The notes below the pieces were generated by a model. It did no database searches, was not told where the DNA came from, and saw only the letters and a program-made list of their open reading frames with translations. From assembly GCA_004299485.1 (NCBI GenBank), contig SCQP01000017.1:1-60398 (forward strand): a stretch of DNA of 60,398 nt. Reading direction: 5' to 3'. Shown in pieces: positions 6,627 to 45,423 of this stretch (position 1 is the first letter of the stretch; the number at the start of each line of letters is the position of its first letter). The translations under genes and the position numbers were made by a program. This DNA comes from Acidobacteriota bacterium (GTDB taxonomy: Bacteria > Acidobacteriota > Terriglobia > Terriglobales > SCQP01).

Positions 6627-6700
6627 TGGCTGCCGGGCAGGGACTCGAACCCCGATAGGCAGATCCAGAATCTGCTGTCCTACCATTGAACGACCCGGCA
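6627..6700 (-). tRNA. tRNA-Gln (anticodon CTG)
   Basis: The minus strand folds into a cloverleaf. The acceptor TGCCGGG pairs with CCCGGCA, the anticodon stem GCAGA/TCTGC encloses the loop TTCTGGA with anticodon CTG, and the T-arm contains GGTTCGAGTCC. The U1-A72 pair is typical of glutamine tRNAs. The 3' CCA is encoded. The gene is convergent with the redoxin gene. Confidence 0.96.
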
Positions 6701-6713
6701 AGCTCGACGAACA

Positions 6714-6742
6714 ATTATACCGTGACCGCTTAAAGCAAAATC
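6714..6742 (-). promoter_or_regulatory. Promoter of tRNA-Gln
   Basis: On the minus strand a perfect TATAAT (6719-6714) stands about 13 bases before the tRNA 5' end, the spacing expected for a short-leader tRNA transcript. A 17-bp spacer puts the -35 position (GATTTT, 6742-6737) inside the left arm of the inverted-repeat element at 6731-6846. The -10 is convincing; the -35 is weak. Confidence 0.6.
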
Positions 6743-6846
6743 AGCGTTCGCGTATCCCGCATCGGACTGAGGCGTACGGCATTTCCTGATGTCAAAGCCG
6801 CAGGCGGTTCGATCCGCCGGGCCACAGCGATGCTGATTTTGCTTTA
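6731..6846. repeat. 116-bp element with 15-bp perfect inverted ends and a tRNA T-arm-like hairpin
   Basis: TAAAGCAAAATCAGC at 6731-6745 is the exact reverse complement of GCTGATTTTGCTTTA at 6832-6846. These arms are AT-rich in a GC-rich genome. The 86-bp interior contains two further 5-bp stems with 6-nt loops: GGCAT/ATGTC at 6778-6793 and GGCGG-TTCGAT-CCGCC at 6803-6818, which resembles a tRNA T-arm. The right arm carries the stop codon of the zinc-ribbon gene and the left arm overlaps the tRNA-Gln promoter. A structured RNA, a MITE-like insertion or a degenerate tRNA are all possible. I see no second copy in the window. Confidence 0.6.
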
Positions 6847-7122
6847 GCCGGAGTGTTTTCCCCAGCGGTAGCGGCGTTTGCCGCAGCGCCGGCAAGAATA
6901 GGGCCAGAGCATCGCTACGGAGGCCAGGCGGTCACTGACGGTTTCCCGCCGCCGGCGGTCCAGATCGGTGCCGCAGCGCCAGCAGTTCTTCACATGGTAG
7001 ACGGGATTGCGGCGGCCGCAGTGCGTGCAGGCATAGACGATCCGGCATCCCGCCAGTTTTTCACCGAATTTCCGGTGCGTGCGTGCGGTTTCCGCGCTCT
7101 CGCAGTACTTGCAGACTGGCAT
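6844..7122 (-). CDS. Small zinc-ribbon protein, function unknown
   Basis: This protein of about 92 residues carries four CxxC knuckles in order: CKYC near the N-terminus, CTHCG, CWRCG and CRRCG. That is enough for two treble-clef or ribbon zinc sites. It is rich in Arg and has no membrane segment, so nucleic acid or protein binding is plausible but unproven. I prefer ATG 7122 (MPVCKYC); an in-frame ATG at 7158 would overlap the upstream ligase gene by eight bases. It follows the ligase/acyltransferase gene on the same strand and ends inside the inverted-repeat element. Confidence 0.6.
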   Translation of the reverse strand: MPVCKYCESAETARTHRKFGEKLAGCRIVYACTHCGRRNPVYHVKNCWRCGTDLDRRRRETVSDRLASVAMLWPYSCRRCGKRRYRWGKHSG

Positions 7123-7150
7123 GCTTGCGTTGGCGCCTCGTGCTACGGAG

Positions 7151-9748
7151 TTACTCACGCAGTCTATACCATTCTTCCAGTTTTGCGGTAATTTCTTCGG
7201 CGCTTTCTCTGCGGAAATGCAACATCGGTCCGAATTTCACATATGCAGGCCCGCGATGGGCGCGGCGCGCTTTGTCCGGCAATATCTCGTATAAGCCGCC
7301 AATCTCGATCGGCACGACCGGCAAGCGCAGGGCCGAAGCAAAGACGCCAATGCCGGGGCGGAAAGGATGCAATTTGCCATCGGGCGTGCGCATGCCCTCC
7401 GGAAAAATCAGCGGACAATAGCCCTGATCGGCCAGCCGCCCGGTGTGCCGCAAGGAGGCACCCACGGCGCCGTAGGCGGTGAGCAGATAGCCGTTGAAAA
7501 AGAGCTGCGATAACTGCAGCCGCCAGCGATCGCGGAAGCGGCGCCAGCGTGAGGCGCGCGGGTCATAGGCACCGACGTAGGGGTCAATCCCCATGGCCGG
7601 TGCCAGCCAGGGCCGCCATTCCCGCGGCATGGCACGCAGAATCAGGGGCACGTCCAGCATGCTCTGATGGTTAGAAATGAAAAAGATGGGGCGCTGCCAG
7701 TGGGCAAACTGCTCCGCGCCTTCGACGGTCAAACGTGAAACGGCCGTTTTCAGGACCGGGAAGACAATCGCATCGAATAAGCCGGCGCGAACATGGCGCA
7801 CAGCGGGGTGCAAGGGCCAGGTTTTCTCGTGCGCCGGCACCAGCAACGGCGGCGCTTGCGGCGGGGGCAGCACAGCACCGCCCCCGACGCCGCTGACCAT
7901 GGCCGCGCTCTTCTCCGCCGCGGCGGCCTGCGGCACGAGCAAGGCATCGACGTCCGCCACGGTTTGCGCCAGCACGATCGAGGTTTCCTCCAGCGCGCCG
8001 GCTGCATGCGCCTCGATCCAGCTCCACAATTCCACGCGATCGAGCGAGGACAGTCCCAGATCCGTATCGAGCCGCACCTGCGGCAACATCCGCGCCGCCG
8101 CGATGCCCCAGCGCCGCGCCACAAACTGCTTCCAGTTAACTGCTTCGCCGTCACCGATCTTTTCCGGCGTGGCTGGCTGACCCTGATTGACCCAGCGCGC
8201 AATCGCGATGCGCTGCAGCTTGTGGGTCGAGGTGGTGCGAGGCAAGTGCGCCTGCGGCCATAAGGAGGCCGCGCGCACACGCTGGTGCGGTTCCAGTTGG
8301 CCATTCGCACCGGCCACGGCCGCGTCCAGTTCCGCGGCCGGCGCGCCCTCGCGCAGCACCACCACGGCATGGACCTTGCTGCCGCCATTGCGCCGGTCTT
8401 CCACGGCCGCCACTTCGGCCACCGCCGCCTGCGCCAGCAAGGCCCGCTCCACGTCCTCGGGATATACGTTCAGCCCATCGGGTGTGACGATGACTTCTTT
8501 TTTCCGCCCCAAAAACGTCAGGTTCTTGTTTCCGTCAATTCGCCCCAGATCACCGGTATGCAGCCAGCCATCGGCAAACGCCTGCTGCGTCGCCTCGGGA
8601 TTGTTGTAATAGCCCGGTGATACATTCCCGCCGCGCACCAGGATTTCTCCGTCCGGAGCGATCTTCACTTCGACTCCGTCCAGCGTCTGCCCCACCGCGC
8701 CGCGCCGGATTTTGAAGGGATGCGTAATCGCAATGGCGGGCGCGGTTTCCGTCAACCCGTAGCCTTGGACCACGGCATACCCGAGCGCGTGCCAGCCATC
8801 TTCCACTTCCTGGCTGAGCGCGGCGCCGCCGGAAATGAACGCCCACATCTTCCAGCCCAACCGCCGGTGCAACTTGCGCCAGCGCCGGAAGCGCCACAGG
8901 ATGCCGTGGGCCTTGCTGATCTCGATGGCCTCCGGAAAGGTCGTGCCGATTTCCGCCAGCGCCCACTGGCTGAATAGCTGCAACTGCTGCGGGACGGCCA
9001 CCAGCGCCGAGGCGCGATAGCGCTTCATCAAGCCGGCCCATTGCGCCGGCGCCTGGGTTTCCGGGTAGATCACGGTGCTGTCCACCAGGGTGGGGATCAA
9101 CAACCCCATTATCTGACCGAACAAGTGACTCAGCGGAATCAGGTGAATGAATCCCAGCGGCAGCAGGATCCGCAGCCGCGGCTTGTACTTTCTAACTTCG
9201 TTGGCTACGGGCCGCAGATTCGCCAACACGTTCCCGTGCGTGATCATCACGCCCTTGGGTTCGGCGGTGGCGCCGGAGGTATAGACGATTTCCAGCAGGG
9301 AATTCGCATCGACAGCCGCGGGCTCGGGCGCCGCAGCCGCCGGCGGCAACTCGCGGATAGCGGCAAAGGGCAGGACCGCGGTATCCAGGGTTTCGCCGCG
9401 ATCGGTGCACAGCAGCACGGCCTCGGTCTGCTTGCGTACCCGTGCGGCCAATTCCGCCGAAAAGGCCACATCCAGCGGCACCATGACTGCGCCGGTCAGC
9501 ACACAGCCGTAAAAGGCGATCGCCCAGGCCGCCCCGGCTGCGCCCCACAGCATCACGCGGTCTCCGGGCTTCACTCCCCGGCGCACCAGTTCCTGTTGCA
9601 GAGCGCATGCCTTGCCGATCAACTCGGCGTAACTCAGCCGGTAGGCGCGATAGAGCTGTTGCTCGATGAGGGCCGTACGCTTGCCCAGACGCGCCAGCCC
9701 CAGAATGTAGTGCGACAGCGAGTCTAAGTTGTCGTGGGCGTTTGGCAT
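7151..9748 (-). CDS. Fused acyl-CoA/acyl-ACP ligase, ACP-like domain and PlsC acyltransferase
   Basis: The 865-residue protein has three domains. Residues 1 to about 530 form an ANL adenylate-forming ligase: YTSGATAEPKG near 155-166, GYGLTE, and HTGDLGRID. At about 555-580 an acyl-carrier-like segment contains GLSSLDRVELW, where a phosphopantetheine serine would sit. Residues from about 670 form an LPLAT/PlsC acyltransferase with NHQSMLDVP near 693 and FPEGMRT near 784. It probably activates a fatty acid, holds it and transfers it to a lysophospholipid or other acceptor at the inner membrane, a recycling role like E. coli Aas. Aas, however, has the opposite domain order and no carrier segment. 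Acceptor specificity is unknown. Confidence 0.88.
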   Translation of the reverse strand: MPNAHDNLDSLSHYILGLARLGKRTALIEQQLYRAYRLSYAELIGKACALQQELVRRGVKPGDRVMLWGAAGAAWAIAFYGCVLTGAVMVPLDVAFSAELAARVRKQTEAVLLCTDRGETLDTAVLPFAAIRELPPAAAAPEPAAVDANSLLEIVYTSGATAEPKGVMITHGNVLANLRPVANEVRKYKPRLRILLPLGFIHLIPLSHLFGQIMGLLIPTLVDSTVIYPETQAPAQWAGLMKRYRASALVAVPQQLQLFSQWALAEIGTTFPEAIEISKAHGILWRFRRWRKLHRRLGWKMWAFISGGAALSQEVEDGWHALGYAVVQGYGLTETAPAIAITHPFKIRRGAVGQTLDGVEVKIAPDGEILVRGGNVSPGYYNNPEATQQAFADGWLHTGDLGRIDGNKNLTFLGRKKEVIVTPDGLNVYPEDVERALLAQAAVAEVAAVEDRRNGGSKVHAVVVLREGAPAAELDAAVAGANGQLEPHQRVRAASLWPQAHLPRTTSTHKLQRIAIARWVNQGQPATPEKIGDGEAVNWKQFVARRWGIAAARMLPQVRLDTDLGLSSLDRVELWSWIEAHAAGALEETSIVLAQTVADVDALLVPQAAAAEKSAAMVSGVGGGAVLPPPQAPPLLVPAHEKTWPLHPAVRHVRAGLFDAIVFPVLKTAVSRLTVEGAEQFAHWQRPIFFISNHQSMLDVPLILRAMPREWRPWLAPAMGIDPYVGAYDPRASRWRRFRDRWRLQLSQLFFNGYLLTAYGAVGASLRHTGRLADQGYCPLIFPEGMRTPDGKLHPFRPGIGVFASALRLPVVPIEIGGLYEILPDKARRAHRGPAYVKFGPMLHFRRESAEEITAKLEEWYRLRE

Positions 9749-15623: not shown

Positions 15624-15658
15624 AACTGATAACTGACAACCGATAACTAAAAACTAGA
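15624..15658. repeat. Degenerate heptad array, 5 units (AACYRAN)
   Basis: Five contiguous 7-bp units run without phase change: AACTGAT, AACTGAC, AACCGAT, AACTAAA, AACTAGA. The first three positions are invariant. The last unit contains the stop codon of the TonB-receptor remnant on the minus strand. No inverted partner array is present nearby. The array lies in the gap of about 215 bp between the mutase gene start and the pseudogene; the rest of that gap holds no recognisable gene. Confidence 0.75.
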
Positions 15659-15985
15659 AGTTCGGTTTGGCCGTCAACTCGATCAGGCGCGGCAATTCAT
15701 CGTCGCCCAGGAACGATCGCAGCCGGCTCGTGGGTACGCTCACCGCGCTCAGGATTTGTCTTGCAGATGTCATTGATCGGGTTACCAGAGTTGGGGTAGT
15801 TGAACGGATTGAAGAACTGCGCTGCCAAACCCAACTGCGCGGTCTCCCAGCCGGGAATTGCCGTGTTCTTGAATACGCTCAGATCGATGTCAACCGAAAT
15901 TCTGGTTGGTCGGCGTGCCCGATGCCGCCTTATCCACCACGCAGAAGAACATGTCGCATGGCTCATGGGGTGATTCAACGCAGAG
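15654..15985 (-). pseudogene. Decayed 3' fragment of an Oar-like TonB-dependent receptor
   Basis: Minus-strand peptides match the C-terminus of the intact receptor immediately upstream. VDIDLSVFKNTAIPGW corresponds to FDTDLSVMKNTAIPGW, FFNPFNYPN to FFNLFNHPN, and a terminal LPRLIELTAKPNF to SPRLIELTAKLIF followed by a stop. These pieces lie in different frames (shifts near 15870 and between 15700 and 15760), and the upstream part of the receptor is absent. This looks like the residue of a tandem duplication. The intact gene's terminator separates the two, so the remnant is probably not transcribed from that promoter. Confidence 0.85.
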
Positions 15986-16093: not shown

Positions 16094-19000
16094 CTAAAAG
16101 ATCAACTTCGCCGTCAGCTCAATGAGACGTGGCGAGGCATCTCCTCCCAGGAACGAGCCCAGCAGGCTTGTGGGTACGCTCACTGTCCGAATAACGGTCC
16201 CGAACTGTGAGTTGGCAACATCGGCCACGGGCTGGTCGAAGTTGGGGTGATTGAAGAGGTTGAAGAACTGGATCCCCAGCGCCAACTGTCCGTTCTCCCA
16301 ACCCGGAATCGCCGTGTTCTTCATCACGCTCAGGTCGGTGTCGAAGAAGCGCGGGCCGCGGAACTGATTCCGGACCTGGTTGCCAAAGCCAGTGGGCGTC
16401 GCGGTCGAGGGGGAAAACGCGGCGGCGTTCAGGCACTGCTTGTCGATCGTGCAGGTGCCGTTCTGCCCGTTGCCGGTCAGCTCACTGGCGAACAGCACTG
16501 CACTGGTCGAGGTGCCATTGCCGAAGTTGGTGGCGGCCAGTGTCGAAGTCGCGGCGTTGTCGATCACCGTCATCGGCAAGCCGCTGCGGGCAAACAGGCT
16601 TCCCGCCAGCGTCCAGCCCTTCCAGAGCGCGCTGCCGCCGCCCGAACCGAACACCCGGTCAAACGGAATCGTCCATACGTAATTCAGGCTCAGGTATTGC
16701 CGGATGTCATAGTCGGCGTTGCCGTAGTTGAACCGCCGCAGGTTGAACGGATCCTGCGGGCTAAGAACGCTGGTGTTGGTGCCGAAGTTGAAGGGATTGA
16801 AGCCACCATTGGAAATTTCATCCAGCGCGTGGCTCCAGGAGTAGTTCACGCCGAACTCCAGCCCGCCCGCCATACGGTGCTGGAATCGCACCGTCAGGCC
16901 GTTGAAATTCGAGATGGCCTGGTTCTGGAGGTGAGTGACGGTGGCGAAGCGCGGGTCTGGGGCCGTGGCCGGCAGGCCCACAAAGCCCGTCGCGAAGGCA
17001 TTGATGCCGCTGTTGAGCACGGGCTCATGAATGCCATGGTTGCCTACGTAATTCAGGCTGAAGCTGGAGTTGGCGCCGATCCCCTGCTGCAGCTCCAGGT
17101 TCCATTCGTAGTAGGTCGGTGGCTTCACTTTCGTCGGCGTGCTGAAAAAGCCCGGCGGCACAAAGCCCGGGTTAGTTGCCGAAATCGAGGCCAGGGTGCC
17201 CCCGTTAGCAAAGGCGGTCAGGAAGGCGGCATTATCCGCGGTGGCGGCGGCCGGCGCAAACCCGGGCGTACCCGGCGCCAGCGTGCCCGGCACGATGAAA
17301 GTGTTCAGATTGGGAGAGTTCCCTGCCAAGCTGTCCATCAACTGTCCCGGCAGCGAGTCATTGAACATGCCAAATCCGCCCCGCAGCACCGTGTTGTGCA
17401 TGCCGAAGACCTGCCAGGCGAAGCCAGCGCGCGGTTGCCACAGCACCGTTTGCGTGGAGGGGAACGCCCGCCGGAGTCCGGTCTGAATCACCGCGTTATA
17501 AGGCACGGCGGGATCGTGCGCCAGTTCCGGGAACGGCGCCGTTAGCCGGGACACGCAATTGTGCAGGCACACCGGATTGGAGTGATGCTCCAGCCGCAGC
17601 GTCAGCGTCAGCTTCAAATCCGGCGTCACGGCTACGTCATCTTCCACGTACCCGCCCAGCCGGTACAGCCGCACCGGCTGGTTGAACCGGTTGGGGAAGG
17701 CCTGTTCGGCAAACAGCGATTTGCCGGCGAAGAAGTTATCGAGGGTGGTCACGACCAGCGGGGTCGTCAAGATCCCCAAGTCGTAATCGTTGACGTCGTT
17801 CAGGGTCCAATCCACGCCGAATTTCCAGGTGTTGATGCCGTCGACCAGGGAAAAATCATCGGTCAGGCCGAACTGGGTCACGTTGCGTCCCTGCGGGAAG
17901 AGATAACTCAGCCCGCCCAGGTTGGCGAACGAGCCGCCGGCGAAACTCAGCGAATAGGGAAACACGGCCGCACGCGCCGCTGGATTCGGTCCGAAAATGG
18001 CAGAGTAATGGTTGCCGCTGGCGTTGAACTGGTTCACCGAGCCGCCGCTGAAGCTGTGGGTCCAGTTCGTCTGGCCCTGGTATTCCGGCTGGTTACTGGT
18101 GATGTTGAACGCCGGGTTGACCGGGTCAGTTTCCGTGGCCTGAATTCCCCGGTCCATCGAGTAACGGAAGTAGGCGGTATCGTTGGGGCCAAAATGCTGG
18201 TCTACCCGGGCCGCCAGGTCCCACTCGTGTGTCTTGTTGCTGGTGTTCGAGAAGAACGAATTTGCGCACACCCCTCCCGCCGGCAGGCCCGTGAATGTGC
18301 CGCACGACCCTGCCAGCGGTGTCGCCCGGCTCGCGCCGTTGGCGGTGTTATACAGGTTGAAGATGCTGTTATAGAACGGCACCTGGGCCGCATTGCCCGT
18401 GGCCGCTAGATTGGCCAAGGTCGCCGCCTGAAACGCCGGGCTCGGAATTCGGGTCTGCACGCTGGTGGGCAGCACCACATACAGGCCGTCGGTGTTCACA
18501 AAGAAAAACGTCTTATCTTTCACGATCGGGCCGCCAAAGCCCACCGACCAGTTGTTGATGTTGTCGAACGAACGCGGCGCGCCGCTGGCGTTGTTGAAGA
18601 AACTATTGGCGTTCATCGTCCGACCGTTCCAGTTGTAGGTCGCATCCCCGTGCCAGCCATTCGTGCCTGACTTGGTAACGTAGTTTACGTTCGCACCGCC
18701 AAAGCCGCCGTACTGGCCCGAGTAACCGTTGTTCACCACGGTCACCTGTTGCACCCCGCTTTGCCCCAGCGTGAGGTTGGTCGGTCCGGAGTTGTTCAGA
18801 TTCAAAAACGGATCATTGTCGGGCTGGCCGTTGATGGTAAACAGGTTGGATGTGGCCGGCAAGCCGAAGGTGGAGAAATTGCCGTACCCGCTCTGGGTGT
18901 TCATCACCGCCCCCGGCGCGGTCTGCACCATCGAGGTCAGGTCGCCGCCCCCGTTGGGCACCTGTTGCACTTGCGCGTTGCTGAAACTGGTAGTGATGTT

Positions 19001-42808: not shown

Positions 42809-43717
42809 CTGCTACGCACCACGCTTCTTGCCCTGTCGCGCAATCCCGGCATGCGCCACTTCACCGAGAACAGCGCTCTCGGAAAACGCGTTTCCCGGCG
42901 TTTCGTTGCTGGTCTGACGCTGGAGGACGCCATCGCGGCCATTGCCGCCGTCAACCAGCTCGGGATGACGGCGACGCTCGATCCGCTGGGCGAAAATGTG
43001 ACCTCGCAGGCAGAAGCCGAGCAGGCCGCCACGACCGCCTGCCATATCCTGGAGACCATCCACGCGCGCCGCGTAGACTCAACCGTTTCGGTCAAGCTGA
43101 CGCAGTTTGGCCTGGATCTCGGCCTCGACCTGGCGCGTGCTCAGCTCCACCGGGTGCTCACTGCCGCGCAACAATGGGATACGTTCATCCGCGTCGACAT
43201 GGAGGGCAGCGCGTATTCCGAAACCACCGTGGCACTGGTCGAGCAGATGCATGGCGAAGGGTTCAACGTTGGCACGGTGCTGCAAGCCTATATGCACCGC
43301 ACCGAAACAGATATGGACCGGCTACTGGCACAGAACATCCGCATCCGGCTGGTCAAAGGCGCCTACCGCGAGCCGGCCGAGCTGGCGCTGCAGGAAAAAG
43401 CCGACGTCGACGCCAACTACGTCCGGTTGATGCACCGCCTGCTGACCCACGACGGCTACCACGCCATCGCCACCCACGACGAACGCATGATTACCGCGGC
43501 AGTGGCCTGTGCCCGCAGCGAAAAGCGCGCGCCTGACAGCTTTGAGTTCCAGATGCTGTACGGTATCCGCCGCGACCTGCAGCAGAAACTCCGCGCCGAG
43601 GGCTGGCGCGTCCGCGTCTACATCCCCTTCGGCCCCGAGTGGTATCCCTATTTCATGCGCCGTCTCGCCGAGCGGCCCGCGAATCTGCTGTTTCTGCTGA
43701 AGAATCTCGCGAAGTAG
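42809..43717 (+). CDS. Proline dehydrogenase
   Basis: This monofunctional flavoenzyme oxidises proline to pyrroline-5-carboxylate at the membrane. The TIM barrel shows VSVKLTQFGLDLG, FIRVDMEGSAY, VLQAYMHRT, IRLVKGAYREP, IATHDERMI, FQMLYGI and YIPFGPEWYPY, the usual order of the ProDH core. Homology seems to extend upstream of the first ATG (42851) as LLRTTLLALSRNPG, the normal N-terminus. The frame is open only back to 42788 and contains no ATG, GTG or TTG there. GGAG at 42798-42801 stands seven bases before a CTG codon at 42809, which I propose as the start. The partner P5C dehydrogenase is not in the window. Confidence 0.87.
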   Translation: MLRTTLLALSRNPGMRHFTENSALGKRVSRRFVAGLTLEDAIAAIAAVNQLGMTATLDPLGENVTSQAEAEQAATTACHILETIHARRVDSTVSVKLTQFGLDLGLDLARAQLHRVLTAAQQWDTFIRVDMEGSAYSETTVALVEQMHGEGFNVGTVLQAYMHRTETDMDRLLAQNIRIRLVKGAYREPAELALQEKADVDANYVRLMHRLLTHDGYHAIATHDERMITAAVACARSEKRAPDSFEFQMLYGIRRDLQQKLRAEGWRVRVYIPFGPEWYPYFMRRLAERPANLLFLLKNLAK

Positions 43718-43809
43718 TTTTCAGTTTTCAGTCATCAGTTCTCAGTTCGAACGCGCTGGCCTGACAACGCCAAGGGCGTACTGAAAACTGTGAACTGAAA
43801 ACTGAGAAC
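43717..43809. repeat. Composite inverted heptad element, copy 1
   Basis: The left arm has units GTTTTCA, GTTTTCA, GTCATCA, GTTCTCA and GTTCGAA (43717-43751). The right arm has TGAAAAC, TGTGAAC, TGAAAAC and TGAGAAC (43782-43809), the reverse complements of the same words. The element could fold into one long imperfect hairpin. Its 39-nt centre, from GTTCG to ACTG, aligns without gaps to that of the element at 45331. It lies between the convergent proline dehydrogenase and broken permease genes, starting in the last base of the stop codon. Confidence 0.85.
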
Positions 43810-43816
43810 TTTTGCC

Positions 43817-44930
43817 TCAGTCTTCGCGCAGCAGCACTGCCGGGCGAATGGCCAGGGCGCGGCGTTCGGGCACCCACACTGCAATCAACCCGATGAGCGC
43901 CATGGCGGCAACCACCCCAGCCATCGCGAGGGGATCGCGTGGCGTGGCCTTATAGACAACGGCGCCCAAAACGCGCGCGGCCAAAATCCCCAGCACCAGG
44001 CCGGCGCTTGCTCACGGCCGCAGCCGCGAGGCCGAAAATGCCGGTCAGCGAAAGGATCACGCCCATCAAGCCGAGCAGGCCCAGCGCCGAGGCGGCCACG
44101 CGGGCGGCGAACAAGGCGCCCGTCATGGCCTGATTCCAGGTTTCAATGAACGACGGTAGTCCCGGATCGAGACTCCGCAATTTCCCTTTGATCGCCAGCA
44201 CCAGCGTCTGCGGGTTGAGCGGCGAGCGCACGATCATGACGGAACTACTGGAGGGCCACTGCAGCAGCGGCAAAAACATGGCCGGTTGCTGGGCTTCGGT
44301 AAGGCTGTTGTACTTGCCGTTTTCGACCACCCCTGCAACCTCGATGCGCGTGCCGTCGTGCAACTTGAAATAGCTACCCACGGCGGCGGTGGTCGAGCCG
44401 AAGAGCTGCCGGGCGAATTGCTGGTTCACAAGCGCGACTTTTGCGGCAGTGGCGTCATCGCTCCAGTCCAGCCTGCGGCCGGCCAACAACGCCGTGCCCG
44501 CAGCGGGGTACGACAGACGCAGCGAGGTGTCGTGCAGGCGGGGTTGTAGGGCGTAGAGAGTCTGCGCCTGCGGGACATTCAGCGGGCGCAGAATGACGGC
44601 GTTCAGTGCGCCAAATACGACCGCGTTGGCGGCAATCGCCACCGCCAGCGTGATGATGGCGGTGAGGGTGAAGCTGGGGGTCTTGCGCAGGCAGCGAGTG
44701 GCGTAGCGCACGTCGCGCCAGAAGGCGTCGAGGCCAACCCAGTGCGTTGCTTCCCAGAATCGCTCCTGGGCGCTGGCAGTGTTGCCGAACGCCCGGTGCG
44801 CTGCCGAGCGCGCTTGCTCGCCGCCGAGCCCCTGCTCGGCCAGGGCATCCGCCTCAAGTTGCAGGTGGGCTTCAATTTCCGCTTCAAAATCTCTGCTGCT
44901 GCGCTTGCGCCGAAACCAGCTTGGGAACAT
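43817..44930 (-). pseudogene. Broken ADOP/MacB-type permease next to padR
   Basis: The start (MFPSWFRRKR, ATG 44930) and the N-terminal ADOP extension (FEAEIEAHLQLEADAL) are present, as is the first membrane helix (LTAIITLAVAIAANAVVFG). At LRLSYP the sequence jumps to the second periplasmic domain (AAGTALLAGRRLDW), so about 400 residues of the usual 800 are missing. After FGLAAAAVSKRRPG the frame shifts, and a second stretch is lost. The last helices and PAVLLRED continue in another frame to a stop at 43817. The gene is non-functional. It starts two bases after the padR stop. Confidence 0.85.
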
Positions 44931-45283: not shown

Positions 45284-45330
45284 TTGACCCAAGCGTCCCC
45301 GGCTTGGGTAAGATGTCAACTGGAACGTCA

Positions 45331-45416
45331 GTTGTCGGTTCTCAGTTTTCAGTTCGTACGTGCTTGCCCGCGGGTGCCGGGTGCGAACTGAAAACTGATG
45401 ACTGAGAACTGTAAAC
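45331..45416. repeat. Composite inverted heptad element, copy 2
   Basis: The left arm is GTTGTCG, GTTCTCA, GTTTTCA, GTTCGTA (45331-45358). The right arm is TGCGAAC, TGAAAAC, TGATGAC, TGAGAAC, TGTAAAC (45382-45416). The words and the 39-nt centre match the element at 43717-43809 (26 of 39 identical, no gaps). It lies in the gap between divergent padR and nnrED, seven bases before the nnrED ATG, so it cannot be a simple terminator. Confidence 0.85.
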
Positions 45417-45423
45417 TTGCTGT

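Follow-up and report, generated by a model that had tools for sequence, protein, structure and literature searches.

The window analysed here, a whole stretch of 60,398 nucleotides from an acidobacterial contig, contains a tRNA-Gln gene (CTG) at 6627-6700 on the minus strand, as called by ARAGORN, and a zinc-ribbon gene at 6844-7158 on the same strand. Between the two lies a 116-base feature bounded by perfect reverse-complement arms, TAAAGCAAAATCAGC (6731-6745) and GCTGATTTTGCTTTA (6832-6846), spaced 86 bp apart. An earlier interpretation made from the letters of the window (hereafter the sequence-only reading) had described these 15-bp inverted ends around an 86-bp interior, and it was borne out: the arms are exact, and the RNA fold of the feature is far lower in energy than those of dinucleotide shuffles (z of -5.4 on the plus and -6.2 on the minus strand). 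The inverted repeat is genuine, and chance is ruled out.

Comparison with other copies led to a revised anatomy, in which a TA bounds most copies on both sides. The TAs at 6731-6732 and 6845-6846 are the left and right target-site duplications, and the element proper covers the 112 bp at 6733-6844, assigned to the plus strand as the strand of the better consensus fold. Its terminal inverted repeats at 6733-6748 and 6829-6844, which overlap the perfect 15-bp arms (these count the TAs), form the 5' and 3' strands of a covarying terminal stem (helix 1). The interior holds a central core hairpin on the plus strand at 6776-6801 (consensus GCGGCTTTTCYTGRNGNNAAAGCCGC; window copy ACGGCATTTCCTGATGTCAAAGCCGC, in which two pairs have decayed) and, at about 6805-6820 on the same strand, the hairpin GGCGG-TTCGAT-CCGCC, which the sequence-only reading had correctly located and likened to a T-arm.

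The zinc-ribbon gene takes its stop codon from the right arm, at the last TTA: in the open reading frame list its TAA (6844-6846, minus strand) consists of the final base of the element and the right TA, as had been proposed. The insertion point thus coincides with this stop codon, on the opposite side from tRNA-Gln. As to the further proposal that the other arm overlaps the tRNA-Gln promoter, the distance from the tRNA 5' end to the left arm, on the upstream side, is 31-45 bp, and a TATAAT-like -10 sequence at 6714-6719 on the minus strand is kept in congeners, but a promoter scan found no full sigma-70 promoter. In the window copy itself, scans for promoter or terminator signals found none.

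Copies, empty sites and placement

With the element as BLAST query, the own genome (3.3 Mb in 22 contigs, 98.8% complete) yielded about 20 copies at scattered places, 70-96% identical to it. A covariance model built from 20 of the BLAST-found copies (model R1), a search that the sequence-only reading had recommended, recovered 27 strong full-length copies in the same genome, with diverged copies and fragments besides, so that about 30 copies are present; minus-strand matches at identical places are an effect of the palindrome. The copies are short and dispersed over unrelated loci, lack a transposase gene and have the layout TA-[112 to about 118 bp]-TA, and most carry perfect terminal arms of 12-20 bp. 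Further copies and compensatory changes in the stems, the two findings on which the sequence-only reading had made its case depend, are both present. A dispersed sequence, GTGGCTCGCCACTTTTTGCCCTGGTCGCTCC...GGCTTCGATTCCCGGC..., adjoins three element copies or fragments (L009, L025, and L038).

The family is distributed patchily, with copies in 11 of 60 relatives, among them members of further genera within its acidobacterial order. Among the congeners, G001 has many copies and G003 few, and none were found in G002 and G004; multi-copy sets occur in G007, which belongs to the same family, and in several members of the order (e.g., G014, G026, and G050). When 297 genomes sampled across the phylum were searched with stricter filters, matches were confined to the same order, and the exact core pattern was found among GTDB contigs in four acidobacterial MAG contigs only, classified by their record titles (Acidobacteria). 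Phage and plasmid records and a pattern search of IMG/VR gave no match to the element. Rfam gave nothing for the element at gathering or permissive thresholds, the sole Rfam match of the window being tRNA-Gln, and the Acido-1 and Acido-Lenti-1 families, which had been suggested for comparison, were negative as well: neither covariance model matched the element or eight other copies at E<=10. In G007, six copies (L034, L069, L070, L075, L076, and L077) have the core within a longer repeat with similar flanks on both sides; this repeat is at least about 200 bp long and is not a TA-bounded 112-bp element.

Element-free counterparts exist for several loci. In G003 and G001 the window locus comprises tRNA-Gln and the zinc-ribbon gene but no element, and their zinc-ribbon protein terminates at the same codon, which is TGA there; if the element and one TA are taken out of the window, the remaining site reads TTAG and includes the stop codon of the neighbour. 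At a serA-like locus, G002, G003, and G004 stop at the codon that the element forms in the own genome. At a UbiD locus, the same stop codon is used in G001, G003, and G004, the convergent gene pair is free of the element in G003, and removal of the element and one TA restores two overlapping stops in CTAA. The suggestion that the feature is an insertion at a tRNA locus is upheld by these empty sites as far as insertion is concerned, but the neighbouring tRNA-Gln looks incidental.

The flanks of the copies define the target. TA is present on both ends in 44-45 of 66 copies, and a clear TA is missing at one or both ends in 22 of the 66 checked, which we read as decay or imprecise ends. Of 45 readable copies, 39 have YTAR, often as CTAG, for their rebuilt pre-insertion site, against a background of 338 of 1597 intergenic TAs (21%; P about 1e-20, indicative only since the copies are related); C or T precedes the left TA in 43 of 45, and G or A follows the right TA in 40 of 45. 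The alternative of a 4-bp YTAR duplication was dismissed: in many copies the two flanks have different fourth bases, and the first and last bases of the element pair with each other.

Insertions are concentrated at stop codons and in convergent gaps. Among classifiable copies, 27 of 50 have convergent genes on either side (12 of 22 in the own genome, 15 of 28 in others); in 460 kb of the own genome, the same holds for 15% of gene neighbours or, counted by intergenic TAs, for 22%. About half of the copies (32 of 62, seven on both sides) form with their end the TAA or TAG of a neighbour, whereas 14% of intergenic TAs belong to stop codons; these figures rest on approximate gene calls from a simple codon-usage script. 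CTAG occurs 0.42 times per kb in 400 kb of the own genome (contigs C1 and C14), whereas 3.3 are expected from base composition, an about eight-fold depletion. Stop codons are hit in part because CTAG is depleted and TA is tolerated there, and copies pile up at stop codons and in convergent gaps because such insertions are nearly harmless. Most other copies likewise owe their insertion point to a stop codon or to a gap between convergent genes, not to tRNA genes. An orientation bias relative to neighbours was not significant (tandem '--' 14, '++' 6).

Some palindromic repeats do enter genes; those of Rickettsia form in-frame insertions within coding sequences. Two own-genome copies (L004:1505-1626 and L005:1497-1618) are reminiscent of these, being read through in frame within a TonB-dependent receptor and an acyltransferase-like membrane protein, where the added stretch ..KQNQHRCGPADRTACDFD.. 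amounts to a net insertion of 114 bp or about 38 codons. The family differs from the Rickettsia elements in that only these two own-genome copies are sited within genes.

Transposase partner and proposed mobilisation

The feature is very probably a miniature inverted-repeat transposable element (MITE) that is moved in trans by IS630/Tc1-mariner-type transposases and targets TA within YTAR. The MITE-like character already proposed in the sequence-only reading is supported by the many scattered copies, their TA flanks and the empty sites. IS630 elements duplicate TA (PMC2170065), and a preference for TA in CTAG is stated in the title of a 1991 paper cited there; the family has the same TA duplication with CTAG/YTAR preference. 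A link to an autonomous partner comes from the congener G001, in which contig C410 carries a 1160-bp IS630 element (NCBIfam transpos_IS630, 277 bits; Pfam DDE_3) with the ends TAGTGTCCTGAGTCAGA. The same ends bound the own-genome copies L044 and L045, which contain the family core (one arm of L044 is off by one base), and a match to a full IS630 is confined to this subfamily. A search of the own genome with DDE_3 and one protein query found no DDE_3 or IS630 protein match, possibly owing to loss or to a missed relative, the assembly being 98.8% complete. No autonomous element with the TARAGC ends of the window subfamily was recovered, the 49 matches (control 29) being elements already known, halves of copies and hits about as frequent as in the control, and a search for terminal inverted repeats around other IS630-type genes of the order gave no further match to the ends of the element. 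We infer that the putative IS630-type transposase of the window subfamily has been lost or has escaped detection.

In the proposed mechanism, the ends would serve as IS630/Tc1-mariner-type terminal inverted repeats at which an IS630-family transposase supplied in trans would cut. The excised element would then be joined to a new TA within YTAR, preferably CTAG, and the TA duplicated. As the ends of the element start with R, insertion at the TA of a stop codon would remake TAA or TAG (TA+R), and both flanking proteins would be left intact even where convergent genes had shared one YTAR. The family illustrates in detail a way for a transposon to settle in a genome dense in genes and poor in CTAG while doing little damage, by a target that overlaps stop codons and ends that rebuild them.

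Fold, shared core and competing explanations

The sequence-only reading had allowed that the element might be structured, and in this it was right. Pairs of the terminal stem covary (A-T, T-A, G-C, and C-G at the same positions with pairing retained), and over the whole structure 96.1% of cells are paired and 14 pairs are altered on both sides, a result that none of 500 shuffles equalled and that compares with 34-45% paired in slid controls. The terminal stem, a feature kept by any inverted-repeat transposon, contributes most to these measures. Support from the central hairpin is independent of it and smaller: within the own genome three of its pairs have changes on both sides, and between genera it appears as GCGGC..GCCGC, GTGGCC..GGCCAC, GGGGCA..TGCCCC, and others. 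Its pattern has 23 matches in the own genome, all within elements, and the reversed-pattern control has none. Counts of G.U against A.C (92 vs. 28 in the plus-strand fold, 34 vs. 45 in the minus-strand fold) hint that plus is the folding strand, a comparison that leans to plus because the fold had been chosen on that strand.

Such two-sided changes, a consensus fold that is better on plus and shows its G.U excess there, and a core hairpin conserved across subfamilies are what would be expected of a functional structured RNA whose fold is kept by selection and which spreads as well, be it as a cis element in 3' untranslated regions or as a dispersed small RNA. We consider this improbable, since the copies lie at non-orthologous positions and in both orientations relative to genes, most of the relatives searched carry none, the window copy is devoid of promoter and terminator signals and the element belongs to no Rfam family; moreover, fold-dependent steps on single-stranded DNA or hairpin correction during replication could yield part of the covariation, and the G.U count has the leaning just described. 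The enrichment between convergent genes, together with the long stable stem and its T-rich right arm, could also suit a bidirectional terminator common to convergent genes. This is less probable still, as the window copy has no terminator-like site, no U tract follows the stem in other subfamilies, and at least a third of the copies are outside convergent gaps, two of them in frame within genes.

A tRNA-derived or tRNA-targeting element, as the sequence-only reading had suggested from the T-arm-like hairpin and the adjoining tRNA-Gln of the window copy, is largely refuted and has very little probability left. The hairpin is limited to the subfamily of the window and near relatives, is unstable in most of the 27 copies and on average barely exceeds shuffles in stability; ARAGORN and Rfam find no tRNA in the element, and other copies are sited by stop codons and convergent gaps. 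A cloverleaf was also tried and rejected, its side hairpins P3 and P5 scarcely beating shuffles. Being palindromic, intergenic and structure-conserving, the element could also be a REPIN or IS200-IS605-type element, which a Y1 transposase (RAYT in the case of REPINs) moves in single-stranded form, but this explanation is just as hard to sustain: Y1_Tnp (PF01797) is absent from the own genome (G000), which has the most copies, and from G001, and the TA flanks and YTAR target are unlike the Y1 pattern.

For a MITE mobilised by IS630-type transposases, the most unusual feature is an identical central hairpin with unrelated ends. An identical 25-nt core, GCGGCTTTTCTTGGTGAAAAGCCGC, occurs with four different ends (AGAGCAGTTTTAGC, AGAGCGCAATCAGC, AGAGCAAATCCAGC, and AGAACCTGTCTCATAATG), which runs against the pattern of ordinary MITEs, which conserve their ends and leave the middle free to vary. 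The differing ends could reflect gradual co-evolution with transposases or an exchange of ends. As a more speculative suggestion, which we put forward as a possibility well short of an even chance, the hairpin GCGGCTTTTCYTG..AAAGCCGC may be a self-contained module kept for its fold in single-stranded DNA and repackaged between several IS630-type ends, that is, one satellite lineage using successive unrelated transposases. If the shared core and the exchanged ends hold, the family would be a test case for transposase switching by non-autonomous elements and for interiors conserved more than ends.

Relation to known repeat families

Several known families resemble the element in architecture, as described in reviews. 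RUP of Streptococcus pneumoniae, a 107-bp MITE whose presumed mobiliser is IS630-Spn1, is similar in its length, short IS630-resembling inverted ends, TA target and intergenic siting (PMC2229807); it belongs to another phylum, and a common core with unrelated ends and siting at stop codons are properties of the present element that the passages on RUP in that review do not mention. ERIC, Correia/NEMIS and other MITEs of ~100-200 bp are likewise short, palindromic and intergenic with TA termini and stable transcript folds (PMC2229807), whereas the terminal stem of the element is longer and covaries between subfamilies. The CIR repeats of Caulobacter and relatives are intergenic inverted repeats of about 100 bp with TA termini (PMC2229807, PMC10969869), but they form two arms plus a linker and contain GANTC, while the 5' and 3' ends of the element pair. 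The IS630 family (ISY100 and IS630) shares the TA duplication, the preference for TA in CTAG (PMC2170065) and the ends of one subfamily, and differs from the 112-bp element, which has no transposase gene. With no such family named in the open-access literature searched and Rfam negative, the MITE family is apparently undescribed, and it adds to a phylum with few described MITEs.

The own genome also contains a second, unrelated repeat family. Its unit, CAGTTTTCAGT / ACTGAAAACTG, occurs as imperfect inverted and tandem repeats in intergenic regions, at 43716-43817, 45329-45417, and 15627-15648 of the window and at L010:186-271. Close to the last of these window sites, two 90-nt segments (15654-15743 and 16094-16183) lie 440 bp apart and are 77% identical, possibly as the ends of duplicated genes.
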